Shown here one piece after another: positions 3,888 to 47,286 of a stretch of DNA of 64,000 bases (positions within the stretch are counted from its first letter, which is position 1; the number at the start of each line of letters is the position of its first letter). The DNA comes from Deltaproteobacteria bacterium (lineage in GTDB: Bacteria; Desulfobacterota; Binatia; UBA1149; JAJCZL01), in contig JAJCZL010000027.1 in NCBI GenBank assembly GCA_029262415.1, positions 1-64,000 on the forward strand, written 5' to 3'. The translations under genes and the position numbers were made by a program. The notes below the pieces were generated by a model. The model was not told the DNA's origin. It ran no database searches and saw nothing but the letters and a program-made list of their open reading frames with translations.

Positions 3888-5861
3888 ATGTGCGGTATTT
3901 GCGGCGTCTTTTATTTTGACCGCGAGCGCCCGGCCCAGGCGTCCACTGTCGTCGCGATGCGCGACACGATGGTGCACCGTGGCCCGGACGGCCAAGGCGT
4001 TTACATCGACCGCAACGTTGGTTTGGGGCATCGCCGACTGAGTATCGTCGATCTTGCGGCAGGCAAGCAGCCGATGTCGAACGAAGACGGCTCGGTGTGG
4101 GTGACCTACAACGGTGAGATCTATAACCATGCTGAACTGCGCGAGGGCTTACTCGCCAAAGGGCACACCTTTCGAACCAAGTGTGACACAGAGGTTCTGG
4201 TCCACCTGTACGAGGAAGAGGGTGATCGCTGTGTGGAGAGCCTCAAGGGAATGTTCGCGTTCGCGATCTACGACGCAAAGCGATGCCGGATACTGCTCGC
4301 ACGCGACCGTATCGGCATCAAGCCCTTGTACTACGCCGAGACGCCGAACGCGGTTGTCTTTGGTTCGGAGATCAAGGCGTTGCTGGCACACCCGGACGTC
4401 CAGCCGGCGCTTAACTGGAACGTTCTTCACGGCTTTCTGCAATACGGTTCGGTCTACGGTCGAGAAACGCTTTTTGAGTCGGTTCTCGAAGTCGAACCGG
4501 GCTACGTTGTCTCGATTTCTACGCGGGGTACGACGGCGACTCGGTATTGGGACCTGCCGGCCGACCCTCCGGGGTTCGCTGGGGCACACGAGCAAGCCGA
4601 GCGTATCGAGGAGCTATTGCGGGTCGCGATCAAGCGCCGGATGATGAGTGATGTTCCTCTGGGGGCTTTTTTGAGCGGTGGCGTGGACTCGAGTCTCATC
4701 GTTGCGATGATGGCTGAGCTGGGTTCCGGTCCTGTCAAGACCTTCTCGATCGGTTTCAGTGAGGCGGGGTTCAACGAGTTCAGTTACTCGCGCGCGGTTG
4801 CAGAGAAGTACTCGACCGATCACCACGAGTTCGTTCTCGACCACTCGGTGTTCTTTGATGCGTTGCCCGATCTAGTGTGGCATCACGATGAACCCGTTTC
4901 TTTACCCGCAAGCATACCGCTCTACTTCCTATCCAAGGAGACTAAGGGCAACGCCACTGTGATCCTGACCGGCGAGGGTGCCGATGAGGTGTTCCTCGGG
5001 TACAAACGGTACCCTTGGCTTGCTAAACAGGCGCGGATTGCTGCGGCGTTCCGTGCCGTGTGTCCTTCGCCGTTGCGTAGCTCGGCGGTATCATTGGCAA
5101 AGAGGCTGTTCGGAGCGGATAGGAAGCTGTTCGATAGGCTGGCGCTGTCGCCGGGGCAACTGGCGGCCACGTTCTTGGAATGGAGTTCGGCGACGACGGC
5201 CGGCTTGGTGTTGACACCGGCAGCGCGCGAACGCGCATCGAATGCAGCGAGCCCCGACTTTTGCTTGCACGCTTATGCGGGATCAACGATGTCTCGTGAT
5301 GCGATGTCAGCGAACACTTATCTGGATTTCAAGACGTTCCTTGTCACCCTACTGATGAAACAGGACAAGATGTCAATGGCCGCCTCTATCGAATCGCGCG
5401 TGCCGTTTCTTGATCACGAACTAGTCGAGGCCGGCTGTGCGTTACCCACAGACTCGAAGTTAGGCCGCGGTGAGATGAAGAAGGTGGTTAAGAAGATAGC
5501 CGAGAAGTATCTGCCGCACGAGCTGATTTATCGGACGAAGCAAGGCTTTCCGGTTCCTGTCACGCCTTGGTTGAACCAAGCCAAGACCCGCAGCCGGTTT
5601 GAAGAGGTGTTGCTCGACGAGAGCGTCCGCAGACGGGGAATGTTCGACTTGGAAGTCGTGCGCGAACGCATCCGTGCTGCGGGGAGTCCCGATGAGCAGA
5701 CCGCGCGTTCGGCCAGCTACCTAGTATGGACGCTTGCCAACTTCGAGCTGTGGTACAACACCTTCATTGAAGGGACGGGGGCACCGCTCGCATCGAATGC
5801 CCATTCATTGAGCGTGAACGGTGGTGGTGAAGCCGATTCGCTTCCTGCGGACGTACACTGA
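3888..5861 (+). CDS. asnB: asparagine synthase (glutamine-hydrolysing) family amidotransferase
   Basis: The 657-residue protein begins MCGICG, so Cys2 becomes the N-terminal nucleophile of a class II glutaminase domain (to about residue 210; HRGPDG and YNGEIYNH present). The synthetase domain follows with the PP-loop SGGVDSS at 263-269 and ESRVPFLDHELVE. Glutamine ammonia is channelled to an adenylated carboxylate. In polysaccharide clusters, AsnB paralogues usually amidate uronic acids or modify glycan rather than make free asparagine. Its place between a GT4 gene and a flippase supports that, but it is inference. It starts at the base after the upstream stop. Length and motifs are complete. 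Confidence 0.9.
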   Translation: MCGICGVFYFDRERPAQASTVVAMRDTMVHRGPDGQGVYIDRNVGLGHRRLSIVDLAAGKQPMSNEDGSVWVTYNGEIYNHAELREGLLAKGHTFRTKCDTEVLVHLYEEEGDRCVESLKGMFAFAIYDAKRCRILLARDRIGIKPLYYAETPNAVVFGSEIKALLAHPDVQPALNWNVLHGFLQYGSVYGRETLFESVLEVEPGYVVSISTRGTTATRYWDLPADPPGFAGAHEQAERIEELLRVAIKRRMMSDVPLGAFLSGGVDSSLIVAMMAELGSGPVKTFSIGFSEAGFNEFSYSRAVAEKYSTDHHEFVLDHSVFFDALPDLVWHHDEPVSLPASIPLYFLSKETKGNATVILTGEGADEVFLGYKRYPWLAKQARIAAAFRAVCPSPLRSSAVSLAKRLFGADRKLFDRLALSPGQLAATFLEWSSATTAGLVLTPAARERASNAASPDFCLHAYAGSTMSRDAMSANTYLDFKTFLVTLLMKQDKMSMAASIESRVPFLDHELVEAGCALPTDSKLGRGEMKKVVKKIAEKYLPHELIYRTKQGFPVPVTPWLNQAKTRSRFEEVLLDESVRRRGMFDLEVVRERIRAAGSPDEQTARSASYLVWTLANFELWYNTFIEGTGAPLASNAHSLSVNGGGEADSLPADVH

Positions 5862-5875
5862 GCGCGGATCCATTA

Positions 5876-7318
5876 GTGGACGAAGTACGCGCCAAAAAGA
5901 CTATCGCTAAAAATACCGCAGCGCTCCTTGCATTGCGGGTGCTTCTTCCAGCCTTCTCCGTCGTTCTTGTGATGTTTGTGGCCCGCGCCCTCGGTACCGA
6001 GGGTCTGGGCCGCTACACACTCGCCTATACCTTCCTGTATGTATTCAGCACGCTTGCTCCGCTCGGTATCAGCGCGATTCTTACGCGTGACGGGGCGCGA
6101 GACCCGGATCGTCTCGGACGCCTTTTGGGAAGCGGTCTAGAGATAGGCGTCGTCTCCGGCGTGATAGTTACGACGCTGATGTGGTCGGTGATCGGGGTAA
6201 TGGGCTACGACCGTGAAACGCTACTGGCACTGGTTGCGGTAAGCTTTGTGGTCCTGCCCGCGACATTGGGCGTGCAACTGGAAGGTGCTGCTTCAGCGAT
6301 GGAGCGGATGGAGTTCATCACGCTCGCCGCGCTAATAGAGAGTGCTATAAAAACGGTCGGTGGCATTGGGCTTCTGCTAGCGGGCTATGGAATCAATGCA
6401 GTCCTGCTCGCGGCTTTCGTTGCTCGTGCGGCGGGAGCTGCTGTCTTGTTCGTCGCGCTGAGACGCGCGGGGCTCAAGGTCTTGTGGGCGCCGCATCTCG
6501 ATACGTTCAGGTATCTTTTCAGCCGAGCGCCGACGTTTCTTGCAATCACCATATTCGCTACGCTCTATTGGCGGATCGATGTTCTCATGTTGTCGAAGAT
6601 GGGATCGATTGAAGATGTCGGGTTTTACGGTGCCGCGTGGCGGTTGTTGGAGCTCGGCATGGTCGTTCCTCAGAGTGTGTGTCACGCGGTCTATCCCCAG
6701 CTTGCGAATTCCGCACTCGGCGATCTTCCGCGCTTCCTCAGGCTTGGCCGCGCCACGATGCGCAATCTTATGGCGATTAGCCTTCCGATGGCGGTGTGCA
6801 TGAGTATCGTGGCCGAGCCGGTGCTGGAATTCATATACGGCAGTGAGTTCGTGGTTGCCGCGCCGACGCTGATCGTCCTGATCTGGACCGTCGTGCCCTA
6901 CGGCTGGGTGCGCTATAACGCGATGGTGTTGGTCGCTGCCGAACACCAGAGTGCCGATCTTTGGCTGAACGCGTCGATGACGCTGCTCAATGTCGCGTTG
7001 AATCTCTACCTGATCCCGACCTACGGGTATTTTGGCGCGGCGGTTGCCACGACGGTTTCCATCGTCGCGTACGGCGCTGCGCAGTGGGGCTACCTGCGGG
7101 CGAGGCTCCCAAAGCATCAGACTGAACTCGTCCTGCCCGCCGGACCACTCGTGGCGGCAATATGTGCGGGAATGGGCGCTTGGCTTCTTCGCGACGTGCA
7201 TGTTGTTGCCGCCCTAGCGGTTTCTGCGCTACTGTACGGAGGAGCGTTGCTGCTCACCGGGTTCGTGAGTATCGCGGAACTAAGAGTCGTTCTCAGCAGC
7301 GAAACGGTCGAGCGTTAG
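5876..7318 (+). CDS. Wzx-like polysaccharide flippase (MOP superfamily)
   Basis: The 480-residue integral membrane protein has about 12-14 hydrophobic segments spread along its length. The N-terminus (KNTAALLALRVLLPAFSVV) and the repeated G-RY-A-F-F pattern are typical of Wzx/RfbX lipid-linked oligosaccharide flippases. It would turn the undecaprenyl-linked repeat unit to the periplasmic face. The start is a GTG at 5876, 14 bp after the asnB stop, in a continuous plus-strand operon followed by the O-antigen ligase. Substrate is unknown. Confidence 0.88.
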   Translation: MDEVRAKKTIAKNTAALLALRVLLPAFSVVLVMFVARALGTEGLGRYTLAYTFLYVFSTLAPLGISAILTRDGARDPDRLGRLLGSGLEIGVVSGVIVTTLMWSVIGVMGYDRETLLALVAVSFVVLPATLGVQLEGAASAMERMEFITLAALIESAIKTVGGIGLLLAGYGINAVLLAAFVARAAGAAVLFVALRRAGLKVLWAPHLDTFRYLFSRAPTFLAITIFATLYWRIDVLMLSKMGSIEDVGFYGAAWRLLELGMVVPQSVCHAVYPQLANSALGDLPRFLRLGRATMRNLMAISLPMAVCMSIVAEPVLEFIYGSEFVVAAPTLIVLIWTVVPYGWVRYNAMVLVAAEHQSADLWLNASMTLLNVALNLYLIPTYGYFGAAVATTVSIVAYGAAQWGYLRARLPKHQTELVLPAGPLVAAICAGMGAWLLRDVHVVAALAVSALLYGGALLLTGFVSIAELRVVLSSETVER

Positions 7319-26985: not shown

Positions 26986-28125
26986 ATGTCGGACGTTGAT
27001 TTGTTGACAGACCCCACCCCCGAGCATGCGATGCTGCGCGAGACGGTGCGCCGCTTCACAGAAAGTGAGATCGAGCCGCAAGCCGAGCGACACGATGAAA
27101 CCGGCACGCTGAATGTTGCATTGATGCGTCGCTGCGGAGAACTCGGGCTGCTCGGGCTTACCATTCCAGCAGCAGACGGCGGCGCTGGGATGGACGCGGT
27201 CGCGGCCGTCATCGCGCACCACGAGATGGCGAAATCCGACCCCGGTTTCACCTTAGCCTACCTTGCCCACTATCTGTTGTTCGTAAACAACTTCTACAAC
27301 GCATCCACGCCGGAGCAGCGCGAGCGGATTCTGCCCCAGGTTCTCAGCGGTGAGTGGGTCGGCGCGATGGGAATGACTGAGCCGGGGGCCGGTACCGACG
27401 TGCTCGGCATGAAAGCTACGGCGCAGCGCAAGGGTGATGTCTACATTCTTAACGGCGCGAAGACCTTCATCACCAACGGTTACGAGGCCCAATGCGTTCT
27501 GACCTACGCCAAAGTCGACGGCAAGGTCACGGCCTTCGTCATCGAACGTGACTTTTCTGGGTTCTCAACCGGCAACCCGATCAAAAAGATGGGCATGCGC
27601 GCGTCAACGATGTGCGAACTCAACTTTGAGAACTGCGAAGTTCCGGTTGCGAATCGTTTGGGTGAGGAGGGCGGCGGTATCACTTGTATGATGCGCAACC
27701 TCGAGATCGAGCGCATGTGTCTCGCGGCGATGAGTCTCGGCATCGCCGATCGGTGTCTGCGCATCATGGTCGCGTACGCGCAACAACGTCACGCGTTCGG
27801 CAAGCCGATTGCAGAGTTCGGTCAGATTCAGAAGTACATCGGTGACTCGTATGCGCTCTGCGAGGCCTCGCGGGCTCTGGTCTACAGAGAGGCGGCGAAG
27901 GTCGGCCCCGGCAGCCGCAATCGACTCGGTACCGATGCCGCCAAGCTTTTCGTTGCGCCTGCCGCCAAGCAGATCGCCGATAATGCCATGCAAGTGCTCG
28001 GCGGCTATGGGTACACCAACGAATACAAGGTCGAGCGGTTTCTTCGCGATGCCAAATTGAACGAGATCGGCGGCGGAACGCTCGAGAGTCACCAGAAGAA
28101 CATCACGCGGGATCTCACCCGTTAA
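26986..28125 (+). CDS. acyl-CoA dehydrogenase, isovaleryl-CoA dehydrogenase-like
   Basis: The 379-residue FAD enzyme has GMTEPGAGTDVLGMK, NGAKTFITNG, and the C-terminal LGGYGYTNEYKVERFLRDAKL block. The usual MCAD catalytic Glu position reads EIGGGTLESHQ (Gly). A Glu is present instead in helix G (NLEIERM, Glu242), as in isovaleryl-CoA dehydrogenase. This suggests a short-branched or similar substrate; the residue match is by eye. It starts 4 bp after cysE and heads the run with the nitroreductase, a large acyl-CoA dehydrogenase and TesB. Confidence 0.9.
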   Translation: MSDVDLLTDPTPEHAMLRETVRRFTESEIEPQAERHDETGTLNVALMRRCGELGLLGLTIPAADGGAGMDAVAAVIAHHEMAKSDPGFTLAYLAHYLLFVNNFYNASTPEQRERILPQVLSGEWVGAMGMTEPGAGTDVLGMKATAQRKGDVYILNGAKTFITNGYEAQCVLTYAKVDGKVTAFVIERDFSGFSTGNPIKKMGMRASTMCELNFENCEVPVANRLGEEGGGITCMMRNLEIERMCLAAMSLGIADRCLRIMVAYAQQRHAFGKPIAEFGQIQKYIGDSYALCEASRALVYREAAKVGPGSRNRLGTDAAKLFVAPAAKQIADNAMQVLGGYGYTNEYKVERFLRDAKLNEIGGGTLESHQKNITRDLTR

Positions 28126-28882: not shown

Positions 28883-28981
28883 ACTCACGCTAGGCCGGTC
28901 TCCCCCGAGGGGGTGGCCCTACATTTGCCGTTTTTGCCGCATTGCGACAAAAACTGCGTGTCCGAAGGAGGATTCCGATTC

Positions 28982-30832
28982 ATGTCTGATGCAGCGATCA
29001 ATCAATACAAGGCCGATTTGCGTTCCATGGAGTTCACCCTCTATGAACACCTGAAAGTTCAAGAGGTGTTCACGGAAGATTATTTCTCCCACCTCTCTCG
29101 TGAAGAGTGCGACCAGATCATCGAGCAAACCGCGCGCTTCGCCGATGAGTATATCGGTCCGCTCAACGGACCCGCCGATCGCGCGGGATGTACGATCGTG
29201 GACGGGCAAGTCATCACCCCCGAGGGTTTTAAAGCGGCCTGGAGCAAACTCTACGAACTCGGTGTTCCGAACTTTGCGGTGCCGCTGGAGCACGGTGGCT
29301 TTCAGGGGCCGAGTTCGGTCGGAAGTGTACTCCACGAGCTGCTCTCGGGTGCGAACTGTTCATTCAACATGTACCCATCGCTTACACTCGGCGCGATGGA
29401 TCTCGTTGCGACCTTCTGCAAGGGCAAGGTACGCGAGACCTTTCTCGAGCCGATGATGGACGGCCGCTTCGGCGGTACGATGTGTCTGTCTGAGTCGCAG
29501 GCCGGCTCCGACGTCGGCTCGGCGACGACCAAGGCCGTCAAGATCGAAGACAACCGCTACAAGATCTCCGGTACTAAGTGTTGGATCTCAGCCGGCGATC
29601 ACGACCTCGGCGAGAATATCGTCCATCTCGTGCTTGCGCGCGTTGAGGGAGCACCGGCTGGAACTAAGGGGATCTCGTTGTTCGTTGTTCCCAAGTACCG
29701 GGTAAACGACGACGGCTCGGTCGGTGAGTCGAACGATGTCCAGACCGTATCGATAGAGCATAAGCTCGGCATCAAGGCTTCGTCGACCGCCGTGCTGGCG
29801 TTCGGCGAGAACGACAACTGCGAAGGCTTCCTGGTTGGTGGTGAAGAAAACTCCGGCATGAAGCAGATGTTCCAAATGATGAACAGTGCGCGCATCATCG
29901 TCGGCATCCAGGGGTTGGCGGCTGCGAGCAGTGCTTACCTAAACGCGCTGGCATACGCGCGTGACCGCAAGCAAGGCTCGTCGGTCAAGGCCTTTAAGGA
30001 TCCGAACGCGCCACGCGTAGCGATCATCGAGCACTCCGATGTACGGCGCATGCTCATGGAGATGAAGGCCCGTGTCGAAGGCATGCGTTCTTTGGTGGTC
30101 AAACTTTCCAAGCACCAGGATCTCTCGTTGGCACTGGCTGAGAAGGACCCGGATACCGCGAACTATCACAAGGGACAGGTGGACCTGCTGACCCCGATCG
30201 TCAAGGCATACTGTTCCGATCAGGGCTTCCGTGTATGCGAGCTCGCCGTCCAGGTGTACGGCGGCGCCGGGTACGTCCAAGACAACCCGGTTGAGCAGTA
30301 TCTGCGCGACTCCAAGATCTTCTCGATCTACGAAGGCACCAATCACATCCAGGCGCTCGACCTCGTGGTTCGCAAACTACGTGGACGCAAGGGCCAGGAT
30401 CTCGTCGACTTCACCAGCAACATGACCGAGTTCATCCAGACGAATGCCAACGATCCGGGCATCGGCGCCGAAGTACGAGCGCTTGGTGCCGCGGCGCAAG
30501 GGCTGCAAGAAGCGGGTGCTTCGATCATGGAATACATGATGAGCGGCAAGCTCGATCAGCTCACTCTGTGCGCGACCCCGTTCTTGGAGGCGATGTCGGA
30601 GATCACCGTTGGTCACCTGCTGCTCGAAGCCGCGCTCATCGCGGAAGAGTGCCGCACTCAGAACGACGATCAGTCGCAAGAGGACTTCGACTTCTACGCA
30701 GGCCGCGTGATGTCGGCAAAGTTCTTCGCGAACTTCATTCTGCCGACCGTGCACGCCAAGGTCGCCGCCATCAAGTCCGCCGACCGCAGCGCCCTTGATA
30801 TCCCTGACCGTGGGTTCAGTACTGCTTGGTGA
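28982..30832 (+). CDS. acyl-CoA dehydrogenase with C-terminal extension (DmdC/FadE5-like)
   Basis: The 616-residue enzyme starts at ATG 28982, preceded by AAGGAGG. It is longer than ordinary members (about 380-400) because of N-terminal and C-terminal additions typical of the DmdC/FadE5-like class. MCLSESQAGSDVG binds flavin, and FSIYEGTNHIQALDLV carries the catalytic Glu451. It removes two hydrogens from an acyl-CoA and passes electrons to ETF. The TesB gene overlaps its stop by 4 bp. Confidence 0.9.
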   Translation: MSDAAINQYKADLRSMEFTLYEHLKVQEVFTEDYFSHLSREECDQIIEQTARFADEYIGPLNGPADRAGCTIVDGQVITPEGFKAAWSKLYELGVPNFAVPLEHGGFQGPSSVGSVLHELLSGANCSFNMYPSLTLGAMDLVATFCKGKVRETFLEPMMDGRFGGTMCLSESQAGSDVGSATTKAVKIEDNRYKISGTKCWISAGDHDLGENIVHLVLARVEGAPAGTKGISLFVVPKYRVNDDGSVGESNDVQTVSIEHKLGIKASSTAVLAFGENDNCEGFLVGGEENSGMKQMFQMMNSARIIVGIQGLAAASSAYLNALAYARDRKQGSSVKAFKDPNAPRVAIIEHSDVRRMLMEMKARVEGMRSLVVKLSKHQDLSLALAEKDPDTANYHKGQVDLLTPIVKAYCSDQGFRVCELAVQVYGGAGYVQDNPVEQYLRDSKIFSIYEGTNHIQALDLVVRKLRGRKGQDLVDFTSNMTEFIQTNANDPGIGAEVRALGAAAQGLQEAGASIMEYMMSGKLDQLTLCATPFLEAMSEITVGHLLLEAALIAEECRTQNDDQSQEDFDFYAGRVMSAKFFANFILPTVHAKVAAIKSADRSALDIPDRGFSTAW

Positions 30833-33620: not shown

Positions 33621-33794
33621 GGCTGGAGGGCAACGGTGTAGTCGGCGAAGCGGCTGCAGGCCGAGGTGTGTGCCGGCTTGTGTGTCGGCCAGCTGCGTGG
33701 CTGGGCGGCTGAGTGTAGAGACGGCGAGCCCGGAATGGAATTCGCGTCGCAAGATGGTTGGTTTATCCTCGCGGGCTGTGGAGGAGACGACCCC

Positions 33795-35564
33795 ATGCAT
33801 GTCCTGGTGATCAACTGCGGCTCTTCGAGTATCAAGTACAGACTGATCGACAGCGTTTCCTCGAAGACAGTCGCTGAAGGTAAGCGGGAGCGTCTTTCCG
33901 CGAAGGATGCGCAGGCCGCGTACAAGGCCGCGCTCGCGGAGATACTCGCGGAGTGCAAGGGACGGCAGGTCGACGCGGTTGGTCATCGGGTTGTTCACGG
34001 CGGCGAGCATTTTCACGAAGCCGTGAGGATTGACGACCAGGTGCTCGCGCGAATCCGCGAGCTCGGCGCGCTCGCGCCGTTACATAACCCGCGCAACGCC
34101 CTAGCGATTGACGCCGCCCGCGCGTCCTTTCCCGAGGTGGCGCACGTCGCCGTATTCGACACTGCGTTTCATCTACGTATGCCGCGTCGTGCGCGCACCT
34201 ACGCGGTCGACCCCGAGCTGGCAGCCGACTATGGTATCAAACGCTTCGGGTTTCATGGCACTTCGCACGCGTACGTGGCCGGCAAGGCCGCCGAGTTCCT
34301 CGGACGACCCTCGGCCGAGCTACGCATTGTTTCGCTGCACTTGGGCGCCGGCGCGAGCGCTTGTGCGATCGAGTTTGGGCACTCGACCGAAACGAGCATG
34401 GGTGTAACGCCGCTCGAAGGCCTGGTGATGGGTACCCGAGCCGGCGACCTTGACCCAGGCGCAATCCTCGCGCTGGTACGCGCCGGTAAGTCCGCCACCG
34501 AGATCGACGATATCCTCAACAACGAAAGCGGACTGAAAGGTCTGTCGGGCGCGGGCGCCGATCTGCGTGACATCGAGACGCGTGCAGCGCAAGGCGACGA
34601 CCGCTGTCGTTTAGCAGTCAACGTCTACGCTCACCGCGCACGCAAATATATAGGCGCGTACGCCGCGGTGATGGGAGGAGTTGACGCTGTGGTATTGACC
34701 GGGGGCGTCGGTGAGAACGCGGTGGCAATGCGGCGGCGTATTCTCCAGCGTTTCGACTTTCTCGGCCTTTCGTTCGATGAAGACCGCAACGCTGATGCAC
34801 GTGTCTCCGAGGCCGAGCCCGCCGTGCGCATAAGTGCCGACGCGTCGCGGGTTACCGCGCTGGTGGTAAAGACCGACGAGGAGCTGATGATTGCGCGTCA
34901 GACCGCGGCCGTTGCCGGCCGTGCAAACGAGGTGGCGAGCGCCGATCCGGTGCCGATCGCGATCAGCGGCCGCCACCTTCATCTTGATGCAGCGACCTTT
35001 GCGGCGTTGTTCGGTGAGGGTGCTGCGCCGACCCGCTACCGTGATATCTCACAGCCCGGGCAGTACGCCTGCGCTGAGGTGGTCAATCTGGTCGGGCCGC
35101 GTGGGCGCATCGACGGCGTGCGCTTAATCGCGCCGCTGCGTCGGGCCAACCAGGTCGAGGTTTCACGTACCGATGAGTTTGCGCTCGGTGTCGATGCGCC
35201 GATTCGTGATTCGGGCAAGACCGAGGGATCTGCTCCGATCACGCTCGAAGGCCCGGCCGGTAGCGTGCATCTGAAAGAGGGCCTGATCTGCGCCAAGCGC
35301 CACATCCACATGACGCCAAAAGACGCTCTTGAATACGGTGTGCGAAACGGCGATGAAGTCGAGGTCGCGCTCAACGGCGGCCCTCGCGACCTCACCTTTG
35401 GCGATGTGCTGATCCGTGTGAGCCCGAATTACAAGCTCGAGATGCACCTAGATACCGACGAGGGCAACGCAGCCGAACTCTCCCGCGGCGCACACGGCGA
35501 ATTGGTGTTTGCGGACGTCGACGGGGCCTCAGGTGTCCTACGTACAAAGCGTACTGCACGCTGA
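33795..35564 (+). CDS. acetate kinase fused to PduL-type phosphate acyltransferase
   Basis: The 589-residue protein starts at ATG 33795 with GGAGGAG about 9 nt upstream. Residues 1-370 are acetate kinase: VINCGSSSIK (Asn7, Ser12, Lys14), VGHRVVHGG (Arg65), FDTAF (Asp122), FHGTSH, GTRAGDLDP (Arg215), TDEELMIARQ (Glu362/363). After a short linker, residues about 385-562 are PduL phosphotransacylase: SGRHLHL (His394, His396), VSRTD (Arg458), KRHIHMTP (His503, His505) and RVSPNYKLEMHLDTDE. One chain could turn acetyl- or propionyl-CoA into acyl phosphate, then the acid and ATP, or the reverse. It has no N-terminal microcompartment signal on the PduL half and no shell genes nearby, so it is probably cytosolic. 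Confidence 0.93.
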   Translation: MHVLVINCGSSSIKYRLIDSVSSKTVAEGKRERLSAKDAQAAYKAALAEILAECKGRQVDAVGHRVVHGGEHFHEAVRIDDQVLARIRELGALAPLHNPRNALAIDAARASFPEVAHVAVFDTAFHLRMPRRARTYAVDPELAADYGIKRFGFHGTSHAYVAGKAAEFLGRPSAELRIVSLHLGAGASACAIEFGHSTETSMGVTPLEGLVMGTRAGDLDPGAILALVRAGKSATEIDDILNNESGLKGLSGAGADLRDIETRAAQGDDRCRLAVNVYAHRARKYIGAYAAVMGGVDAVVLTGGVGENAVAMRRRILQRFDFLGLSFDEDRNADARVSEAEPAVRISADASRVTALVVKTDEELMIARQTAAVAGRANEVASADPVPIAISGRHLHLDAATFAALFGEGAAPTRYRDISQPGQYACAEVVNLVGPRGRIDGVRLIAPLRRANQVEVSRTDEFALGVDAPIRDSGKTEGSAPITLEGPAGSVHLKEGLICAKRHIHMTPKDALEYGVRNGDEVEVALNGGPRDLTFGDVLIRVSPNYKLEMHLDTDEGNAAELSRGAHGELVFADVDGASGVLRTKRTAR

Positions 35565-38047: not shown

Positions 38048-38926
38048 TCAGCGCAGCGCACTGGCTGAGCCGACAATAACTTTGGTGCCATCATCTTTTT
38101 GAACCCAAACTTGCAGGCTTACCCGCGAGCGATCCGATTCAGGCGATTCGTCGATGATCTGCGCATGCGCGCTGACGCGCTCGCCCCCCCACAACGGGTT
38201 GACCAAGCGCACGTCCATCTTTCCTGCCGTGAGCCACCCTTGCGCAAATTTGCGGGTCAGCACTTCGGAGATGAAGCAGATCGGCATCATCCCTTGAACA
38301 ACGATGTCGGGAAAGCCGAGCGCAACAGCGGCCTCGCGGTTGGTGTGGTAGTTCTCGCCGGGGCCGGAAAAGGCCATGCACATTTCTTCGCTTACGTGCT
38401 TAGACACCGATTCGAGTTCGACTCCGTCTGTGGTTTCCAGGTCAAAGCGTCGGCTGGTGTCTTTCTCGCGATCCTTGTTGACGACGACGTTTTCACGCTC
38501 CACTGCGCGCGGGCCGGCGCCGGCGGCATCGGGCCCAGCGGCAAGAAAGCTCTGGTGGGTGATCCCGCGGTTTAGCAGGCGCCCACCTTTGTCGAGCACC
38601 CAGGTCTCCTTGACCAGGTAATCGCGGCCGCGTTTGCGATAGCGCTCGCGGATGAACCCGCGGGTGGTGACCGCAGTGCCGACCGGCACGGCCGCGTAAA
38701 GTTCCCACTCTTGCCGCGCGTGCAGGTTGCCGAAGATATTCTTCAAGTACCAGTTGAGGTTTTGGTAACACTCCGAGTGCAGCAGCAGGGCAGGGCAGTA
38801 GCTGTCGTAGAGGGGATTGTCATCGAGCACGGCAGCGCGGTAGGCGGCCACCAGGGCGTCGTCTACGGTGATCTCGCGCCCACCGAAGTCGCGGCCGACG
38901 TAGACAGGTTCGTCGTTGAAGTTCAT
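38048..38926 (-). CDS. MaoC-like (double hot-dog) dehydratase-family protein
   Basis: The 292-residue protein joins two hot-dog domains. The first matches FAS1-type dehydratase N-domains (YVGRDFGGREITVDDALVAAYRAAV). The second has GPGENYHTNREAAVALGFPDIVVQGMM, close to the R-specific hydratase motif with catalytic Asn/His. It likely hydrates or dehydrates an enoyl-CoA in the nearby pathway. A GAGGAG precedes the ATG. It is head to head with the LLM enzyme gene across about 90 bp. Confidence 0.8.
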   Translation of the reverse strand: MNFNDEPVYVGRDFGGREITVDDALVAAYRAAVLDDNPLYDSYCPALLLHSECYQNLNWYLKNIFGNLHARQEWELYAAVPVGTAVTTRGFIRERYRKRGRDYLVKETWVLDKGGRLLNRGITHQSFLAAGPDAAGAGPRAVERENVVVNKDREKDTSRRFDLETTDGVELESVSKHVSEEMCMAFSGPGENYHTNREAAVALGFPDIVVQGMMPICFISEVLTRKFAQGWLTAGKMDVRLVNPLWGGERVSAHAQIIDESPESDRSRVSLQVWVQKDDGTKVIVGSASALR

Positions 38927-39017
38927 TAGGCTCCTCTTTTACACCGGATCTCGGCCACACCGCCAGTCGCGGCCCCGCTCCTGGACCTGAAACGCGAGGC
39001 GGCGTAGGTTTCCTGTC

Positions 39018-39860
39018 ATGGATTACGGACTGGTTATCTTCCCCACCGAGTATGCGCCTACACCCGCCGAGCTTGCGCTTGCCGCTGAGGAGCGCGGCTT
39101 TGAGTCGCTCTGGTTCCCCGAGCACACTCACATCCCCGCGAGTAGAAAGTCGCCTTGGCCGGGCGGTGCCGAGTTACCGCAGGCGTATTACGATACCTAC
39201 GATTTGTTTGTGGCGCTGACCAACGCGGCGTCGGTAACGAGCAAGATCAAGGTCGGCAGCGGCATCTGCTTGATGGTCGAGCGCGACCCGATTACCACGG
39301 CGAAGGAAGTTGCCAGCCTCGATCGTTTGTCGAACGGACGGTTTCTCTTCGGCATCGGCGGTGGTTGGAACGAAGAAGAGATGGCCAACCACGGCACCCA
39401 GTTCAAGCGGCGTTGGCAGGTGATGCGCGAGCGCGTCGAGGCGATGAAGGAGATTTGGGCGAACGAGCAGGCCGAGTACCACGGGGAGTTCGTGGATTTT
39501 GATCCGATTTTTTCCAACCCGAAGCCGGTCCAGAAGCCGCACCCGCCGGTGATCATCGGCGGCTCGGCCCCCCACGCGTTGCGCCGCGCGGTGCGTTACT
39601 GCGACGGTTGGATTCCGATCGGTGTGCGCGACGATATCGTCGCGCAGATCCCGGAGTTGCGCAGGATGGAAGAAGAGGCCGGTCGCGGGCCGGGCTCTGT
39701 CGAGGTATCGGTGTTCTACGCGATGCCGGATGCGGAGACCGTTGCAAACTACCAAGAGCTGGGCGTCAAGCGCTGTATCTTCGGGCTGCCTTCTGCCGGT
39801 GCGCAAAAGGTGCTGCCGATGATGGACACCTTCGCCGAATTCGCTCGCAAGCAGGGCTGA
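39018..39860 (+). CDS. LLM class oxidoreductase, probably F420-dependent
   Basis: The 280-residue TIM-barrel protein has FPEHTHIPASRKS, KVGSGICLMVERDP, LDRLSNGRFLFGIGGGWNEEE and the PPVIIGGSAPHALRRAVRYCDGW block. These fit the luciferase-like family branch that uses F420 rather than FMN. The substrate is unknown. It is followed after 18 bp by an acyl-CoA dehydrogenase gene on the same strand and is divergent from the MaoC-like gene. Confidence 0.88.
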   Translation: MDYGLVIFPTEYAPTPAELALAAEERGFESLWFPEHTHIPASRKSPWPGGAELPQAYYDTYDLFVALTNAASVTSKIKVGSGICLMVERDPITTAKEVASLDRLSNGRFLFGIGGGWNEEEMANHGTQFKRRWQVMRERVEAMKEIWANEQAEYHGEFVDFDPIFSNPKPVQKPHPPVIIGGSAPHALRRAVRYCDGWIPIGVRDDIVAQIPELRRMEEEAGRGPGSVEVSVFYAMPDAETVANYQELGVKRCIFGLPSAGAQKVLPMMDTFAEFARKQG

Positions 39861-39878
39861 GCGGGCAGGCGATAGGAG

Positions 39879-41042
39879 ATGACCACAGCAAAGTACTTGA
39901 CCGATGATGTCACCGCGTTTCGCGAGGCTTTCCGCGGCTTCCTTGCCGTAGAGGTAGTCCCTCACCTCGAGCAGTGGGAACGAGACAGGCGCGTGCCGCG
40001 CGAGTTTTGGCTTGCGATGGGGCGCAACGGTTTTCTCGCTCCGTGGCTGAAAGAGGCAGACGGCGGCAGCGAAGCCGGGTTCGGGTTCTCAGTCATCATT
40101 CAGGAGGAACTCGGGCGGATCGGTTTCATGGGGCTGCAGACCGGCGTCTCGGTACATTCCGACGTAACTGTTCCATACCTTGACCAGTTGCTTAGCGGCG
40201 AACTCCGCGCCGAGTGGCTGCCGAAGTGTGCGACCGGCGAGGCGCTTACCGCCATCGGCATGACAGAACCCGGTGCGGGGTCGGACCTCGCCGCGATTCG
40301 CACCACTGCAGTGCGCGACGGCGACGCCTACGTAGTTAACGGCCAGAAAACCTTCATATCCAACGGTATCGATTGCGACCTGATTGTCTTGGTGGTCAAG
40401 ACCGACGCGAAAGCCGACCCCCCTCACTCCGGTATCAGCCTGCTACTGGTTACCGACGGCACCCCCGGATTCAACAAGTCGCGTCAGCTCGAAAAGATGG
40501 GCCAGCATTGCCAGGACACCGCCGAGATCTTTTTTGAAGACTGCCGCGTGCCGGTCGCTAACTTGCTCGGTGATGAGGGCAAGGGTTTCCACTACCTGAT
40601 GCGCAATCTGCAGCGCGAGCGCCTGATGATTGCGATCAGTGCGCAGGCGGCCGCTGAGCAGATTCTCGAGAAGGCGCTTGCCTACGCCAAGGAACGTAAA
40701 GCTTTCGGCAAGCCGATCGGCAGCTTTCAACACAACGCGTTCAAGATCGTCGAGCTTGCCACCGAGATCGAGATGGGCCGAACGTTTATCGATGCCGTGA
40801 TCGATGAGTACATGGACGGCGAGGATATTACGCGCCGCGTATCGATGGCCAAGTGGTGGCTGAGCGACCTTGCCAACAAAACGGCCTACGAGGCCGTGCA
40901 GTTGCACGGCGGGTACGGTTATATGCAGGAGTACCCGGTATCGCGCGATTACACCGACGTGCGCGTGTTGCCGATCTACGCTGGTTCCAATGAAATCATG
41001 AAGCTGATTCTCGCGCGCATGATGGGCTTGGGTGAGCGTTAA
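39879..41042 (+). CDS. acyl-CoA dehydrogenase
   Basis: The 387-residue enzyme has IGMTEPGAGSDLAAIRT, NGQKTFISNG and LHGGYGYMQEYPVSRDYTDVRV. The MCAD-type Glu position is Ala (IYAGSNEIMK), but Glu247 in LQRERLMIA can serve as the base, as in long-chain and isovaleryl-type enzymes. It would oxidise an acyl-CoA with ETF as acceptor. An AGGAG lies directly before the ATG. It probably shares a transcript with the LLM gene. Confidence 0.9.
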   Translation: MTTAKYLTDDVTAFREAFRGFLAVEVVPHLEQWERDRRVPREFWLAMGRNGFLAPWLKEADGGSEAGFGFSVIIQEELGRIGFMGLQTGVSVHSDVTVPYLDQLLSGELRAEWLPKCATGEALTAIGMTEPGAGSDLAAIRTTAVRDGDAYVVNGQKTFISNGIDCDLIVLVVKTDAKADPPHSGISLLLVTDGTPGFNKSRQLEKMGQHCQDTAEIFFEDCRVPVANLLGDEGKGFHYLMRNLQRERLMIAISAQAAAEQILEKALAYAKERKAFGKPIGSFQHNAFKIVELATEIEMGRTFIDAVIDEYMDGEDITRRVSMAKWWLSDLANKTAYEAVQLHGGYGYMQEYPVSRDYTDVRVLPIYAGSNEIMKLILARMMGLGER

Positions 41043-41076
41043 TCCCGGCTGACTGATACCGGATGACGCGGCGGGG

Positions 41077-41700
41077 TCATTTCCTTCGGCCGCGAATCGC
41101 GCGCACCAGCAGATCGCGAAACTCGTTGTCGTTGCTGTCGGTCCAGCCGAAGGCCGCGGACATCACCGGTCGCAACAAATTGAAACCAAGAATCGCGCTG
41201 ATCAGCAGCGCGAGGTTCATCGCGGATTCCTCCGGTGAACTCGGATTGGGCGCACCCTCGCGCAGGGCTTTCAGTATTTGCGCGGCTGCGTCACGGTCGG
41301 CGCTGAATTCGGTGGCGAGATCGTCTGCATCGAGCAACCCTGTGAGCAGGCCCCATGCGACCATGCGTGAAACGCCGGGGCGCTCAGCAAAAGTGTCGAA
41401 CATCACCACCACCGAAGGGATCTCGGGGTCTAGATAGCTGCCGTCTTCTTGGAGTTTGCGGATATCACGACCCATGCCCTTGAGAGTGCGGCGCAGTACG
41501 GCTTTGAGTAGGCCTTCTTTGCTGCCGAAGTAGTGGTGGATCAGGCCGAAGCTGACACCGGCTTCGCGTCCGAGCTCTGCTAAGCCGAAGCCGTCAGGGC
41601 CTTTGCGATTGAGGAGTTCCTCGGCGCTGGCGAGGATCTGTTTGATGGTTTGCTCGCGGTCGCGCTTGCGGACGGGCTTTTGCTCGGCTGGGTCGGACAT
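41077..41700 (-). CDS. TetR family transcriptional regulator
   Basis: The 207-residue protein has an N-terminal helix-turn-helix (residues about 15-65; REAGVSFGLIHHYFGSKEGLLKAVL) and a variable ligand domain. TetR regulators of this layout often respond to acyl-CoA. It is the last gene in the minus-strand SDR-MaoC-TetR series, 42 bp after the MaoC gene, so it is probably co-transcribed and may repress this beta-oxidation region. Operator and ligand are not identified. Confidence 0.9.
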   Translation of the reverse strand: MSDPAEQKPVRKRDREQTIKQILASAEELLNRKGPDGFGLAELGREAGVSFGLIHHYFGSKEGLLKAVLRRTLKGMGRDIRKLQEDGSYLDPEIPSVVVMFDTFAERPGVSRMVAWGLLTGLLDADDLATEFSADRDAAAQILKALREGAPNPSSPEESAMNLALLISAILGFNLLRPVMSAAFGWTDSNDNEFRDLLVRAIRGRRK

Positions 41701-41742
41701 CTCGGCTGATTAAAGCGCCTCATGGCTTCGGGGCGCTGGTGT

Positions 41743-42609
41743 TCAGACGCTGATCGTCGCCTTCGCGTTCTTTACGACATCGATACCGCGTCCCTTAACG
41801 TTGGCTTTTACGATGACCTCGGTGTCCGACTCTTTCCAGATCTCGGTGACGATCGTCTCGCCGGGGATTACCGGTGAAGCGAAGCGCGCGTCGAGTCCCT
41901 TGAACTTGGTCGGATCGTTTCCACAGCACGCTTCGATCACCGCGCGCCCGACATTTCCGTAGGTGCAAAGGCCGTGAAGGATCGGGCGCTCGAAGCCGAC
42001 CATCGCTGCCATTTGCGGGTCGATGTGCAGCGGGTTCCGATCGCCACTGAGCCGGTAGATGATCGCCTGGTGTTCGAGCGTTGGCGTTTCGACCTTGAAG
42101 TCGGCCGCACGGTCGGGCGGTTTGTTGCCGGGCGGGGGGCCCGACTCGCCACCGAAACCGCCTTCACCGCGTACGAATATCTTGTACTCGTTGCGGAAGA
42201 TCGGCTTACCCGCGTCGTCTTTGGTGAGCGTTTCGACGACGAGTACTGCACCTTTTCCCTTGTCCCACACCTCGGTCACCTTCGCGGTGTTGGTCGCCCT
42301 ACACTTGGTCGGGACTTCGTCGCAGAGAACTTCGAGATTCTGTTCGCCGTGCAGGATCATCATCGGGTTGATCTCGACGCCGTCCATGCCGATCAGCCCC
42401 ATGATGCACGAAAAGGTCGGCACCACGCCGAAGGTCGGAATCACTTTCAGTTGGTTCTCGTAGGTATATTGCAGCACGCCGGGATCGACGGGGGAGGCTC
42501 CGACTCCAACCCCAAGTCCCAGCGCATACAGGATGACATCCTTGTCGTTCCACTCAAAGGTGGTCGGCTCGAGTTCCTGGCCGCGTACTTTCTCGACATC
42601 GATCGGCAT
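41743..42609 (-). CDS. MaoC family (R)-specific enoyl-CoA hydratase 2
   Basis: The 288-residue protein matches the hydratase-2 part of peroxisomal multifunctional enzyme 2: an N-domain with VVPTFSCIMGL, and the catalytic YRLSGDRNPLHIDPQMAAM (Asp/Asn/His) followed by GFERPILHGLCTYG. It adds water to trans-2-enoyl-CoA to give (R)-3-hydroxyacyl-CoA. A GAGGAG precedes the ATG, and the SDR gene lies 13 bp upstream; together they reproduce the two functions of MFE-2 as separate genes. Confidence 0.92.
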   Translation of the reverse strand: MPIDVEKVRGQELEPTTFEWNDKDVILYALGLGVGVGASPVDPGVLQYTYENQLKVIPTFGVVPTFSCIMGLIGMDGVEINPMMILHGEQNLEVLCDEVPTKCRATNTAKVTEVWDKGKGAVLVVETLTKDDAGKPIFRNEYKIFVRGEGGFGGESGPPPGNKPPDRAADFKVETPTLEHQAIIYRLSGDRNPLHIDPQMAAMVGFERPILHGLCTYGNVGRAVIEACCGNDPTKFKGLDARFASPVIPGETIVTEIWKESDTEVIVKANVKGRGIDVVKNAKATISV

Positions 42610-42622
42610 CTGGGTGCTCTCC

Positions 42623-43537
42623 TCAGCTCATCGCGTGTTTCAAAGAGTGCTGGGTCGACTCACCGATCGAGCGCAGGATCTGCGCGTCTTTCATATCGTT
42701 GATCTTGTCCCAGCCGTCGGCGACTTGCTCGGCGGTGATCTCGCCCTCGGGCTTGATCGAGAGGCCCCGGGCACGAATCCATTCGACGCGTGAGAAGTGG
42801 CCGGCACCAACCTCAAAGACCTCGCCGTTTACGTCGCAGCTCTCCGAGCAAAGGTTGATGACGAGCGGTGAGACGTAATCGGGCTTGATCGCATCGTGCA
42901 TGTTGGGCGGCAAGAGGTTCTCCGTCATACGGCTGAGTGCCACCGGAGCTATGATGTTGGTGCGGATGTTGTACTTCTCGCCTTCGAGCGCGAGGGTCTG
43001 GCCGAGACCGACCAGCGCCATTTTCGCGGCGGAATAGTTGGTCTGTCCGAAGTTGCCGTAGATGCCCGAAGCCGACGAGGTCATCACCACCCTCCCGTAG
43101 CCTTTCTCGCGCATGTGCGGCCACGCCGCTTTGGTTACGCAGAACGCACCTTTGGTGTGGACGGCGAACACCAGATCCCAGTCTTTCTCTTGTTGTTTGG
43201 CGAAGCTGATGTCGCGTAGGATACCCGCGTTGTTGACGACGATGTCGATCGAGCCGAAGTTTTCGAGCGCAGTTTTGACCATCGCCTCGCCACCTTCCAT
43301 GGTCGCGACCGAGTCGTAGTTCGCAGCGGCGTTGCCTCCGGCAGCTTTGATCTCTTCGACCACTTGATCGGCCATCGCTGAGCCTTTGCCGCTACCGTCG
43401 GTGGCACCGCCGAGATCGTTGATCACCACGTTGGCGCCGTGTTTGGCGAACAACAACGCGTGGGCGCGTCCCAAGCCGCCGCCGGCTCCGGTGATGAGTG
43501 CGGTTTTTCCTTTAAGTCCGAATCGATCTCCAGCCAT
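42623..43537 (-). CDS. SDR family (R)-3-hydroxyacyl-CoA dehydrogenase, MFE-2-like
   Basis: The 304-residue protein has ITGAGGGLGRAHALLFA (NAD binding), the NNAGILRD motif, SSASGIYGNFGQTNYSAAKMAL with the catalytic Ser-Tyr-x3-Lys, and an MFE-2-like end (FSRVEWIRARGLSIKPEGEIT). It oxidises (R)-3-hydroxyacyl-CoA to 3-ketoacyl-CoA with NAD. A GAGGAG lies about 9 nt before the ATG. It heads the minus-strand SDR-MaoC-TetR unit and is divergent from the acyl-CoA dehydrogenase pair. Confidence 0.92.
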   Translation of the reverse strand: MAGDRFGLKGKTALITGAGGGLGRAHALLFAKHGANVVINDLGGATDGSGKGSAMADQVVEEIKAAGGNAAANYDSVATMEGGEAMVKTALENFGSIDIVVNNAGILRDISFAKQQEKDWDLVFAVHTKGAFCVTKAAWPHMREKGYGRVVMTSSASGIYGNFGQTNYSAAKMALVGLGQTLALEGEKYNIRTNIIAPVALSRMTENLLPPNMHDAIKPDYVSPLVINLCSESCDVNGEVFEVGAGHFSRVEWIRARGLSIKPEGEITAEQVADGWDKINDMKDAQILRSIGESTQHSLKHAMS

Positions 43538-43651
43538 TTCTAAACTCCTCTGTGTTGCGCAAACGGCTCCGGATTAGGTATCCACGGCCGCTTTTCGCGC
43601 CGTTATATGCACGCTCTTGCAATAAGTAAAGGTCCGTGGCTACGTACCCCG

Positions 43652-44776
43652 ATGGATTTCGGTTTTACCGAGGAGCAGGCCCAGCTCCAATCCCAGGTCC
43701 GACGATTTGTCGATAGCGAATGCCCGCTCGCGCGCGTGCGTGAGCTGATGGCTTCCTCTGTCCCGGTAGATAAAGGCCTGTGGGAGAAAGCGGCCGGACT
43801 CGGTTGGCAAGCGCTGACGCTTCCCGAGGAACACGGCGGTCTCGGGCTGGCCTGGGAAGACCTGGTGGTGATTGCAGAGGAGGCGGGCCGGGGACTCTTG
43901 CCGCTCCCGCTCGTCGCCGACGCGGCCGCGGCCCGACTCCTCGCGCGCCTGGGCAATCCACAGCAGTGCGCGCGCTGGCTTCCGGCGATCGCGACCGGTG
44001 ACTCGATCGCAACCATCGCGATGCTCGAAGACGCCGATGTTTACGAAGACAGGGGCGTCTCGCTCCAGGCAAGCGCATCCGCGAACGGTTCTGCGTCGCT
44101 CAAATTGAATGGGGCCAAACGATTCGTCCCCTATGCGCAGGCCGCTGACCTACTGCTGGTGATCGCACGCGAACCCGAAGGCGTCAGCGTTTTCGCTGTC
44201 CCCGCCGACTCACCCGGCGTGACGATCATTCCTTTGGTTCTGGTCGACGCGACCCAGCGAGAGGCCGACGTCGTGTTTAACGAGGTATCTGTCTGCGACG
44301 ACCAACGTCTCGGCCGCGCAGGAGCGGCTTGGGCCGAGGTAGCGCGGGTCCTCGATGCCCACGCTGTTGCACTTTCCGCCGAGCTTGTCGGTGCCGCCGA
44401 CGCTGCAGTCATGATCGCGACCGAGTACGCGAAAGTCCGCAAGCAGTTCGGTCATACCATCGGTCGTTTCCAAGGCGTAAAGCACCGGCTTGCCGAGCTC
44501 CACGTCGGCGTCGAGTCGGCACGTTCGCTTGTTTACTACGCCGGGTGGGCAGTCGATCACCTCGAAGACGCGAGAATGCACGTCTCGATGGCCAAGTCGT
44601 TCGCCTCAATGGCGGCAGACGAGGCGGGGGAGGACTGTATCCAAATCCACGGTGCGATCGGCTACACCTGGGAGTGTGACGCGCAGCTTTACTACAAGCG
44701 TGGACGCGCGAGCCGTAACATTCTCGGCTCGCCCGAGTGGCACAGCGAACGCGTGCTGAGCAGCCAGGGGCTGTAG
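43652..44776 (+). CDS. acyl-CoA dehydrogenase-like subunit lacking an obvious catalytic base
   Basis: The 374-residue protein has the fold of the family but few of its active-site residues: the helix-G position reads LDAHAVALSAELVGAAD with no Glu, and the C-terminal position reads GRASRNILGSPEW. It resembles the non-catalytic partner of heteromeric enzymes such as mycobacterial FadE28/FadE29 (ChsE1/ChsE2). I start at ATG 43652; a longer in-frame start adds unlikely residues. The next gene, an acyl-CoA dehydrogenase with a helix-G Glu, follows after 12 bp. Confidence 0.85.
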   Translation: MDFGFTEEQAQLQSQVRRFVDSECPLARVRELMASSVPVDKGLWEKAAGLGWQALTLPEEHGGLGLAWEDLVVIAEEAGRGLLPLPLVADAAAARLLARLGNPQQCARWLPAIATGDSIATIAMLEDADVYEDRGVSLQASASANGSASLKLNGAKRFVPYAQAADLLLVIAREPEGVSVFAVPADSPGVTIIPLVLVDATQREADVVFNEVSVCDDQRLGRAGAAWAEVARVLDAHAVALSAELVGAADAAVMIATEYAKVRKQFGHTIGRFQGVKHRLAELHVGVESARSLVYYAGWAVDHLEDARMHVSMAKSFASMAADEAGEDCIQIHGAIGYTWECDAQLYYKRGRASRNILGSPEWHSERVLSSQGL

Positions 44777-44788
44777 GAGTTACTAGCG

Positions 44789-45979
44789 GTGAACTTTACA
44801 TTTTCGCCTGAGGAGGAACGTTTTCGCAGCGAAGTACGCGTGTTTCTCGCCGAGAAAAATCCAAACCGCGGGGAGAAAATCGGTAGCGATATCGAGTCGA
44901 GCCTGGCTCGTTTGCCGCAACTGTTGGCCTGGAACCAGGCCCTCTACGATAAGCACTGGGTTGGTTTTAACTGGCCGCAGCGCTACGGCGGAGGCGGAGG
45001 CGGACTCATCGAGCAGATGATACTCAAGGAAGAGTGCGCGAAAGACCACGCGCCGATCCTCGGGCTCTCTTACATGGGTCTTGCGTGGGTCGGTCCGGGT
45101 TTGATCAAGTACGGCACCGAGGAGCAGAAGCAACGTTTCATCCCGCCGATTCTCAAAGCCGAGGAACACTGGTGCACGGGCTACTCTGAGCCTGGGGCCG
45201 GTAGCGATCTTGCGTCGTTACAGTGCAAGGCCGAACGCGACGGCGACCACTACGTCATCAATGGACAGAAGATCTGGACATCGCTGGCGTCGTGGGCGCA
45301 GTGGATGATTTTGTTGGTGCGCACCGATCTTTCGGCGCCGAAACATCTCGGCATGAGTTGCTTGTTGGTGCCGATGGACGCCGAGGGAATGGAAGTACGG
45401 CCGATTAAAGTGATGAGCGGTGAAACGCCGTTTGCGGAGATCTTTTTCAACGACGTGCGCGTTCCGATCGAGAACCGGCTCGGCGAGGAAGGGCAGGGCT
45501 GGGACGTAACCAAGACCGCTCTGGCCAACGAACGCAGTTCGATTGCCGAGGTTACCGCGCTGCAACACAACCTCGAGGACTTGAAGGATCTTGCGCGCCG
45601 GTGCCGGATAGGCGGCCGGGCGGCCATCGAGGACTCATCGGTGCGTTCGCGACTGGCGAAACTCGACTGCACGATCGAGGCAATGCGGTTGTCGGGTTTG
45701 CGTTTTTTGACCAAGCAGCTACGTGGCGAGCCCATCGGCGCCGAGACTTCCGTCAACAAACTCCTGCGTGCCCAGGTCGAAGTTGAGATGGGTCGGCTCG
45801 GGTGTGACATCGAAGGTTCCGCAGGCCGCTTGCTCAAGGGTCCGCACGGCATGGACGTCGGTGCGAAGTGGCAGAAACATATGCTCGGTTGGCCGACTAC
45901 GGTGATCGGCGGTGGAACGCCGAACATTCAAAAAAACGTCATCGCCGAGCGAATTCTCGGATTGCCGCACGATGTTTGA
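44789..45979 (+). CDS. acyl-CoA dehydrogenase, predicted catalytic partner of the preceding subunit
   Basis: The 396-residue enzyme starts at GTG 44789 with AGGAG about 9 nt upstream. It has YSEPGAGSDLASLQCKA, NGQKIWTS and VIGGGTPNIQKNVIAERILGLP. The C-terminal Glu is missing, but Glu248 in LANERSS aligns with the base described for ChsE2/FadE29. With the previous gene it probably forms an alpha2beta2 enzyme like those that oxidise steroid side chains or other bulky acyl-CoAs. The partnership is inference from sequence and order. Confidence 0.88.
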   Translation: MNFTFSPEEERFRSEVRVFLAEKNPNRGEKIGSDIESSLARLPQLLAWNQALYDKHWVGFNWPQRYGGGGGGLIEQMILKEECAKDHAPILGLSYMGLAWVGPGLIKYGTEEQKQRFIPPILKAEEHWCTGYSEPGAGSDLASLQCKAERDGDHYVINGQKIWTSLASWAQWMILLVRTDLSAPKHLGMSCLLVPMDAEGMEVRPIKVMSGETPFAEIFFNDVRVPIENRLGEEGQGWDVTKTALANERSSIAEVTALQHNLEDLKDLARRCRIGGRAAIEDSSVRSRLAKLDCTIEAMRLSGLRFLTKQLRGEPIGAETSVNKLLRAQVEVEMGRLGCDIEGSAGRLLKGPHGMDVGAKWQKHMLGWPTTVIGGGTPNIQKNVIAERILGLPHDV

Positions 45980-46053
45980 ATGCGACAACGCTGTTCGCAA
46001 CCTGACAACGCGAATCGGAATCGGATAAGCGAATAGACGAGAGGAGACCAACG

Positions 46054-47286
46054 ATGGGGACTGCATATATTTTGGACGCGACGCGCACCCCGCGCGGCAA
46101 GGGCAAGAGCTCGGGCAAACTGCACGAGACCCACCCCCACGAGTTGCTCACCACTCTTCTCAAAGAGATGCCTAAGCGTGTCGACTTCGACCCCAAAGAT
46201 GTTGAAGACGTCGTGACCGGGTGCGTGACCGAGTTCGGCGACCAGTCCGGTCCGATGGGTCGCATGGCGGTATTGTCAGCCGGCTGGCCAACCCAAGTGA
46301 CCGGTGTCAGCCTCAACCGCTACTGCGGGTCGGGCCAACAAGCCGTCAACTTTGCCCTAATGGGATGCGCTGCCGGATTTCAAGAACTCGCGATCGGAGG
46401 CGGCGTCGAGAGTATGTCGCGTTGCCCGATGGGTGCCGACAAGGGCGGTCTGGACGGTCACAACCCGCTACTCGCTGAGCGCTACCCGTTGGTCCCGCAG
46501 GGAATTTCCGCCGACTTGATCGCTACGCGTGAAGGTTTTTCACGCCAAGAGGTTGACCAGTTCGGCGTCGAGAGCCAGCACAAAGCCGGTGTCGCAGTCG
46601 AAAACGGTTATTTCGACAAGAGTATCATCCCGGTCAGGGACACAAATGGTGACGTCGTTTTGGACAGAGACGAGATGCCGCGCCCGCAGACGACCCTGGA
46701 GACACTTGCCGGACTGGAGCCGTCGTTTATTGGTATGGGCGGCTATGTGCCCGAAGGCCAGACCTTGAGTCTTGATGGACGCGCAAAGTCGGCGTACCCC
46801 GAGGTTACCGAGATCAACCACGTACACCACGCCGGCAACTCTTCGGGGATCGTTGACGGTGCTTCGGCGGTGCTTGTCGCTTCTGAGAACTACGTCAAGC
46901 GGCATTCGAACGTGAAGCCGCGCGCGAAGGTCATCTCGATGGCGACCGCCGGCGACGAGCCGGTGATCATGTTGACGGCCGTTGAGCCTGCATCCAAGAT
47001 TGCCCTCGAGAAGGCGGGCATGAATTGGAGTGACATCGATTTGTTCGAGGTTAATGAGGCGTTCGCCGCGGTGGTCCTCAAGTTCCTTAAGGAGTCGGGG
47101 GTAGACCGCGACAAAGTTAACGTGAATGGTGGTGCGATTGCGCTTGGCCACCCGCTCGGCGCGACCGGCGGAATGTTGATCGGCACCGCACTCGACGAAC
47201 TTGAACGGCGTGATCTAAACACCGCGCTGATAACCATGTGTATCGGTGGCGGCATGGGCATCGCGACGATCATCGAACGGGTCTGA
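46054..47286 (+). CDS. thiolase (acetyl-CoA acyltransferase)
   Basis: The 410-residue protein has the nucleophile Cys in NRYCGSGQQAVNFA, the LFEVNEAFAAVVLKFL His region pattern, NGGAIALGHPLGATGG and the second active Cys in CIGGGMG. It would cleave 3-ketoacyl-CoA with CoA to acetyl-CoA (or propionyl-CoA for branched chains), the last step of the set encoded here. AGAGGAG precedes the ATG. It follows the acyl-CoA dehydrogenase pair by 74 bp. Confidence 0.93.
   Translation: MGTAYILDATRTPRGKGKSSGKLHETHPHELLTTLLKEMPKRVDFDPKDVEDVVTGCVTEFGDQSGPMGRMAVLSAGWPTQVTGVSLNRYCGSGQQAVNFALMGCAAGFQELAIGGGVESMSRCPMGADKGGLDGHNPLLAERYPLVPQGISADLIATREGFSRQEVDQFGVESQHKAGVAVENGYFDKSIIPVRDTNGDVVLDRDEMPRPQTTLETLAGLEPSFIGMGGYVPEGQTLSLDGRAKSAYPEVTEINHVHHAGNSSGIVDGASAVLVASENYVKRHSNVKPRAKVISMATAGDEPVIMLTAVEPASKIALEKAGMNWSDIDLFEVNEAFAAVVLKFLKESGVDRDKVNVNGGAIALGHPLGATGGMLIGTALDELERRDLNTALITMCIGGGMGIATIIERV

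Follow-up and report, generated by a model that had tools for sequence, protein, structure and literature searches.

A single open frame in the DNA analysed here (64,000 nucleotides of a contig of a Deltaproteobacteria bacterium, hereafter the window) encodes one chain of 589 residues that contains a complete acetate kinase (AckA) and a complete PduL of family PF06130. Most probably (at a probability of about 0.87), this protein is a cytosolic bifunctional AckA-PduL enzyme that acts in place of the Pta-AckA pair and is the sole route of this kind found in the genome, with activities, substrate and direction that we infer from sequence. The architecture itself is not a discovery: it is already described and is found in many bacterial phyla. 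According to Erbilgin et al. (2016; PMC4784909), PduL is also found joined to acetate kinases, with no encapsulation peptide, an arrangement that might serve channelling. Accordingly, the initial annotation, for which an architecture that is common and already described would count as a refutation, is superseded on this point, since both the architecture and the channelling idea date from 2016. The Ack-PduL proteins of that paper have in common with the protein of the window the union of PF06130 with an acetate kinase, the lack of an encapsulation peptide and the proposed role as a stand-in for Pta; the relevant part of the paper is a passing statement, with neither a phylogeny of the fusions nor an assay, to which residues, distribution and genome context are added here. 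Searches of open-access papers yielded no biochemical work on such a fusion.

The gene (33795-35564, plus strand) has no internal stops, is covered by Pfam and NCBIfam domain matches, and is preceded by a ribosome-binding-like GGAGGA (33780-33785, plus strand) ahead of the ATG at 33795. The acetate kinase domain spans residues 3-368 (33801-34898; PF00871, E 8.6e-124, 413.6 bits against a cut-off of 22; TIGR00016, 396.6 bits against 293.4) and the PduL phosphotransacylase domain residues 387-562 (34953-35480; PF06130 (PTAC), E 1.8e-68; NF011652, 233.9 against 209), an assignment that the residue table and the alignment to 5cuo, respectively, also support. The linker between them (residues 369-386; 34899-34952) consists of the end of the last AckA helix and a short stretch, 378-382, of low confidence in the AlphaFold2 model. 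The intact frame and the completeness of both halves agree with the initial annotation, and codon-position GC is coding-like in the AckA half, the PduL half and the junction. Both flanking genes, for a MATE transporter and an AsmA-like protein, lie on the opposite strand; the fusion gene therefore stands alone, and an operon with neighbouring acyl-CoA genes is ruled out. The initial annotation had stressed a setting rich in such genes, and acyl-CoA dehydrogenases, a thioesterase and a thiolase are indeed encoded farther away, but proximity is the sole link. An acyl-CoA degradation region occupies positions 38048-47286 (three acyl-CoA dehydrogenases, MaoC-type hydratases, an SDR, a thiolase, a luciferase-like monooxygenase and a TetR regulator), and two further acyl-CoA dehydrogenases are encoded at 26986-28125 and 28913-30832.

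The kinase half retains the AckA hallmark residues N7, S10, S12, K14, R65, H97, D122, H154, H182, G213, R215, G304, N308 and E362/E363 (residue table), and the equivalents of the PHOSPHATE1 Asn/Ser/Ser/Lys, the catalytic Arg pair, His180, Asp148 and Glu384 are present. The residues named in the initial annotation (Asn7, Arg65, Asp122, Arg215 and Glu362/363) are all in place, but the sole deviation among the hallmarks checked was overlooked, namely Ala185 at the position of Asn211 (PHOSPHATE2) of the M. thermophila enzyme. Because stand-alone AckA relatives vary here too (Ala, Gly, Ser or His), this position is not counted as defining. In M. thermophila AckA, the N211A substitution lowers activity about 6-fold, leaving the enzyme active, and raises the Km for acetate from 14 to 165 mM (PMC4390882). 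Given this residual activity and the variation among relatives, the kinase half of the fusion is probably active; with Ala185, it may activate acetate poorly and perhaps favours acetate formation. The fold and nearly all hallmark residues are common to the window protein and AckA of the ASKHA family (4ijn, 2iir, 1g99), from which it differs by the C-terminal PduL and the Ala at the Asn211 position; its N-terminal region is about 25 residues shorter than that of T. maritima AckA. The catalytic residues of the kinase are conserved across the fusions outside the three-domain members from Rhodocyclaceae and Thauera (see below).

The metal and phosphate contacts given for rPduL (PMC4784909) are His48, His50, Glu109, His157, His159, His204 and Arg103. 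Alignment to 5cuo maps the six metal ligands to H394, H396, E455, H503, H505 and H551 of the fusion and the phosphate-contacting Arg103 to Arg449, and all seven residues are invariant in 15 aligned fusions. The two His pairs (H394/H396 and H503/H505) had thus been located correctly in the initial annotation, whereas the phosphate arginine is Arg449 rather than Arg458. On these grounds the PduL half is predicted to carry phosphotransacylase activity. The fold and all metal and phosphate ligands are common to this half and the PduL of Rhodopseudomonas palustris (5cuo/5cup); unlike the latter, it is located behind a kinase and comes with neither shell genes nor an encapsulation peptide, the PduL domain beginning directly after the short linker (Pfam, AlphaFold2). 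No BMC shell protein (PF00936) was found in the window's genome in a search in which E. coli and Synechococcus controls matched, which rules out a microcompartment enzyme; a bifunctional AckA-PduL outside microcompartments, as initially annotated, is what the sequence supports.

The window's genome (96.8% complete, in 83 contigs) was searched family by family. The profile search yielded a single AckA/PduL match, the fusion itself. No member of the PTA_PTB family was found in this genome (controls matched 10/14), where a Pta could have been missed given the completeness and the number of contigs, nor in the fusion-bearing genomes G002, G158 and G141; when an ADP-forming acyl-CoA synthetase was sought with PF13549 (ATP-grasp), one match lay just above the cut-off and two fell below it. 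Because no other phosphotransacylase-acetate kinase route was found in the organism, the fusion would stand in for the Pta-AckA pair. The PduL half would exchange CoA for phosphate on acetyl- or propionyl-CoA, and the AckA half would transfer the phosphate of the resulting acyl phosphate to ADP, yielding ATP and the free acid, both half-reactions being in principle reversible. The genome also encodes a phosphoketolase with all three domains (4917-7286 of locus L128), so acetyl phosphate can also reach the fusion from outside the protein and may be converted either to acetyl-CoA or to acetate and ATP. The phosphoketolase gene directly adjoins a gene for a GH94-type protein of 2185 aa, a pairing that suggests sugar phosphorolysis feeding acetyl phosphate.

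The phosphoketolase bears on two other views of the fusion. Its acetyl phosphate could be the main substrate, salvaged to acetyl-CoA by the PduL half while the kinase serves to release any excess. Such a role would suit a genome with a phosphoketolase and no other detected phosphotransacylase, as well as a kinase carrying Ala in place of Asn, a change by which a relative uses acetate less well (PMC4390882), and a phosphoketolase is also encoded in the fusion-bearing genome G141; but none was detected in five other genomes with the fusion (G002, G158, G207, G229 and G269), and in the window's genome the phosphoketolase and fusion genes are unlinked, so that we regard salvage as a rather unlikely main role. 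Less likely still is the proposal, made in the initial annotation and, in brief, by Erbilgin et al. (PMC4784909), that acetyl phosphate is channelled from site to site, away from the cytosol. Consecutive reactions on one chain and the retention of the fusion across phyla are compatible with this idea, but free acetyl phosphate is made by the phosphoketolase of the same genome, and the AlphaFold2 model, built from 15 fusion sequences (mean pLDDT 79.1, pTM 0.59), predicts a flexible linker. In the model, whose low-confidence stretches are 201-222, the linker at 378-382 and the tail at 572-589, Foldseek matches the kinase part to acetate kinases (4ijn, E 4.4e-40) and, separately, the PduL part to 5cuo (E 2.1e-24, TM 0.95 by target length, rmsd 1.2); the two active sites are not fixed relative to each other and the model therefore lends no support to a channel. 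Acetate kinase and PduL are each oligomeric when separate, which leaves the site-to-site geometry unfixed. PduL is described as a dimer (PMC4784909), and a channel within an oligomer is possible and would be compatible with the model. For the bifunctional stand-in for Pta-AckA, the benefit of fusion is most likely a fixed 1:1 supply and joint inheritance of the two activities.

Homologues with both halves, a search for which had been proposed initially, are widespread: 25 other in-frame fusions were found in several phyla, a minimum count because the searches favour close relatives. The genome contig collection contains 19 loci with the fusion in one frame, from Granulosicoccaceae, Polyangiaceae, Bacteroidota, Pirellulaceae, Desulfobacterales, other Deltaproteobacteria, Rhodocyclaceae, Thauera and one contig labelled Acidimicrobiales. 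Among 148 genomes searched in the window's class, 80 gave an AckA match, but the fusion was confined to two of them, the window's genome and G002. The latter is an independent genome from the same order, and its fusion is 65% identical over query residues 1-578; 296 genomes drawn from the phylum added five more (G269, G158, G229, G141 and G207). That an assembly error or frameshift joined adjacent ackA and pduL genes is accordingly ruled out for practical purposes. Adjacent separate genes do exist in many Bacillota (L020, L026, L030), but with pduL first, the reverse of the order in the fusion, and at the junction, which the initial annotation had marked for checking, the sequence is coding-like and neither G002 nor the 24 other in-frame loci show a frameshift or stop. 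In one genome (G105; L129:1595-4044) the fusion is split into two overlapping frames, by either sequencing error or decay, and is whole in its genus-mate G141 (L130). The only neighbour conserved across fusions is a gene for a beta-propeller protein, shared by the two loci from Granulosicoccaceae that were scanned. In a Desulfobacterales MAG, a DUF3141 (PHB-depolymerase-like) gene lies immediately upstream of the fusion (L005:4023-6224); DUF3141 gave no match in the window's genome, in a search in which no control matched either.

In the tree of the AckA half, the short-form fusions make up a clade with 14 members (support 100) and the long-form fusions another with 7 (support 99), which requires 2 changes, whereas in the tree of the PduL half all fusions fall on one side of a single weak branch (support 43), which requires 1. 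This pattern fits one old fusion followed by transfer and loss and would also be compatible with two separate fusion events; repeated independent fusion is not needed. The fusion on the contig labelled Acidimicrobiales groups with that of a member of Granulosicoccaceae (L003 with L004; support 99), perhaps reflecting recent transfer or mis-binning.

The long forms constitute a sister branch to the window-type fusions. In all four scanned with Pfam (L012:7491-9794, L013:2029-4356, L016:7248-9560 and L058:7191-9524), a cNMP_binding domain (E 2.4e-14 to 4.1e-11) precedes AckA and PduL; a similar N-terminal extension is present in L014, L015, L017 and L130-L133, the first three of which are likely to have the same three-domain architecture. 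These proteins have in common with the window protein an AckA-PduL core, about 45-49% identical, and differ from it by the additional cyclic-nucleotide-binding domain. Nearly all kinase residues are kept in two deltaproteobacterial members. The Rhodocyclaceae and Thauera members (L014, L015, L016, L017 and L058) no longer have the GSSS/K motif of PHOSPHATE1 or the equivalents of Gly331 and Asn335 (ADENOSINE motif), and they have Asp or Asn at the Glu384 position, with PduL residues intact, so their kinase half is a probable pseudokinase. A tentative scenario, to which we give well below even odds, is that of one old bifunctional family with a cyclic-nucleotide-gated branch, within which the kinase of the Rhodocyclaceae and Thauera group became a pseudokinase, leaving a cyclic-nucleotide-controlled phosphotransacylase, and of which the window protein would be the ungated form. 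No paper on an acetate kinase with a cyclic-nucleotide-binding domain, or on the three-domain form, was found in the open-access papers searched. As the sole detected route of its kind in the genome, the protein of the window would provide a clear natural example of Pta being replaced by PduL without a microcompartment, and its apparently unreported three-domain relatives could link cyclic-nucleotide signalling to the flux between acetyl-CoA and acetate.
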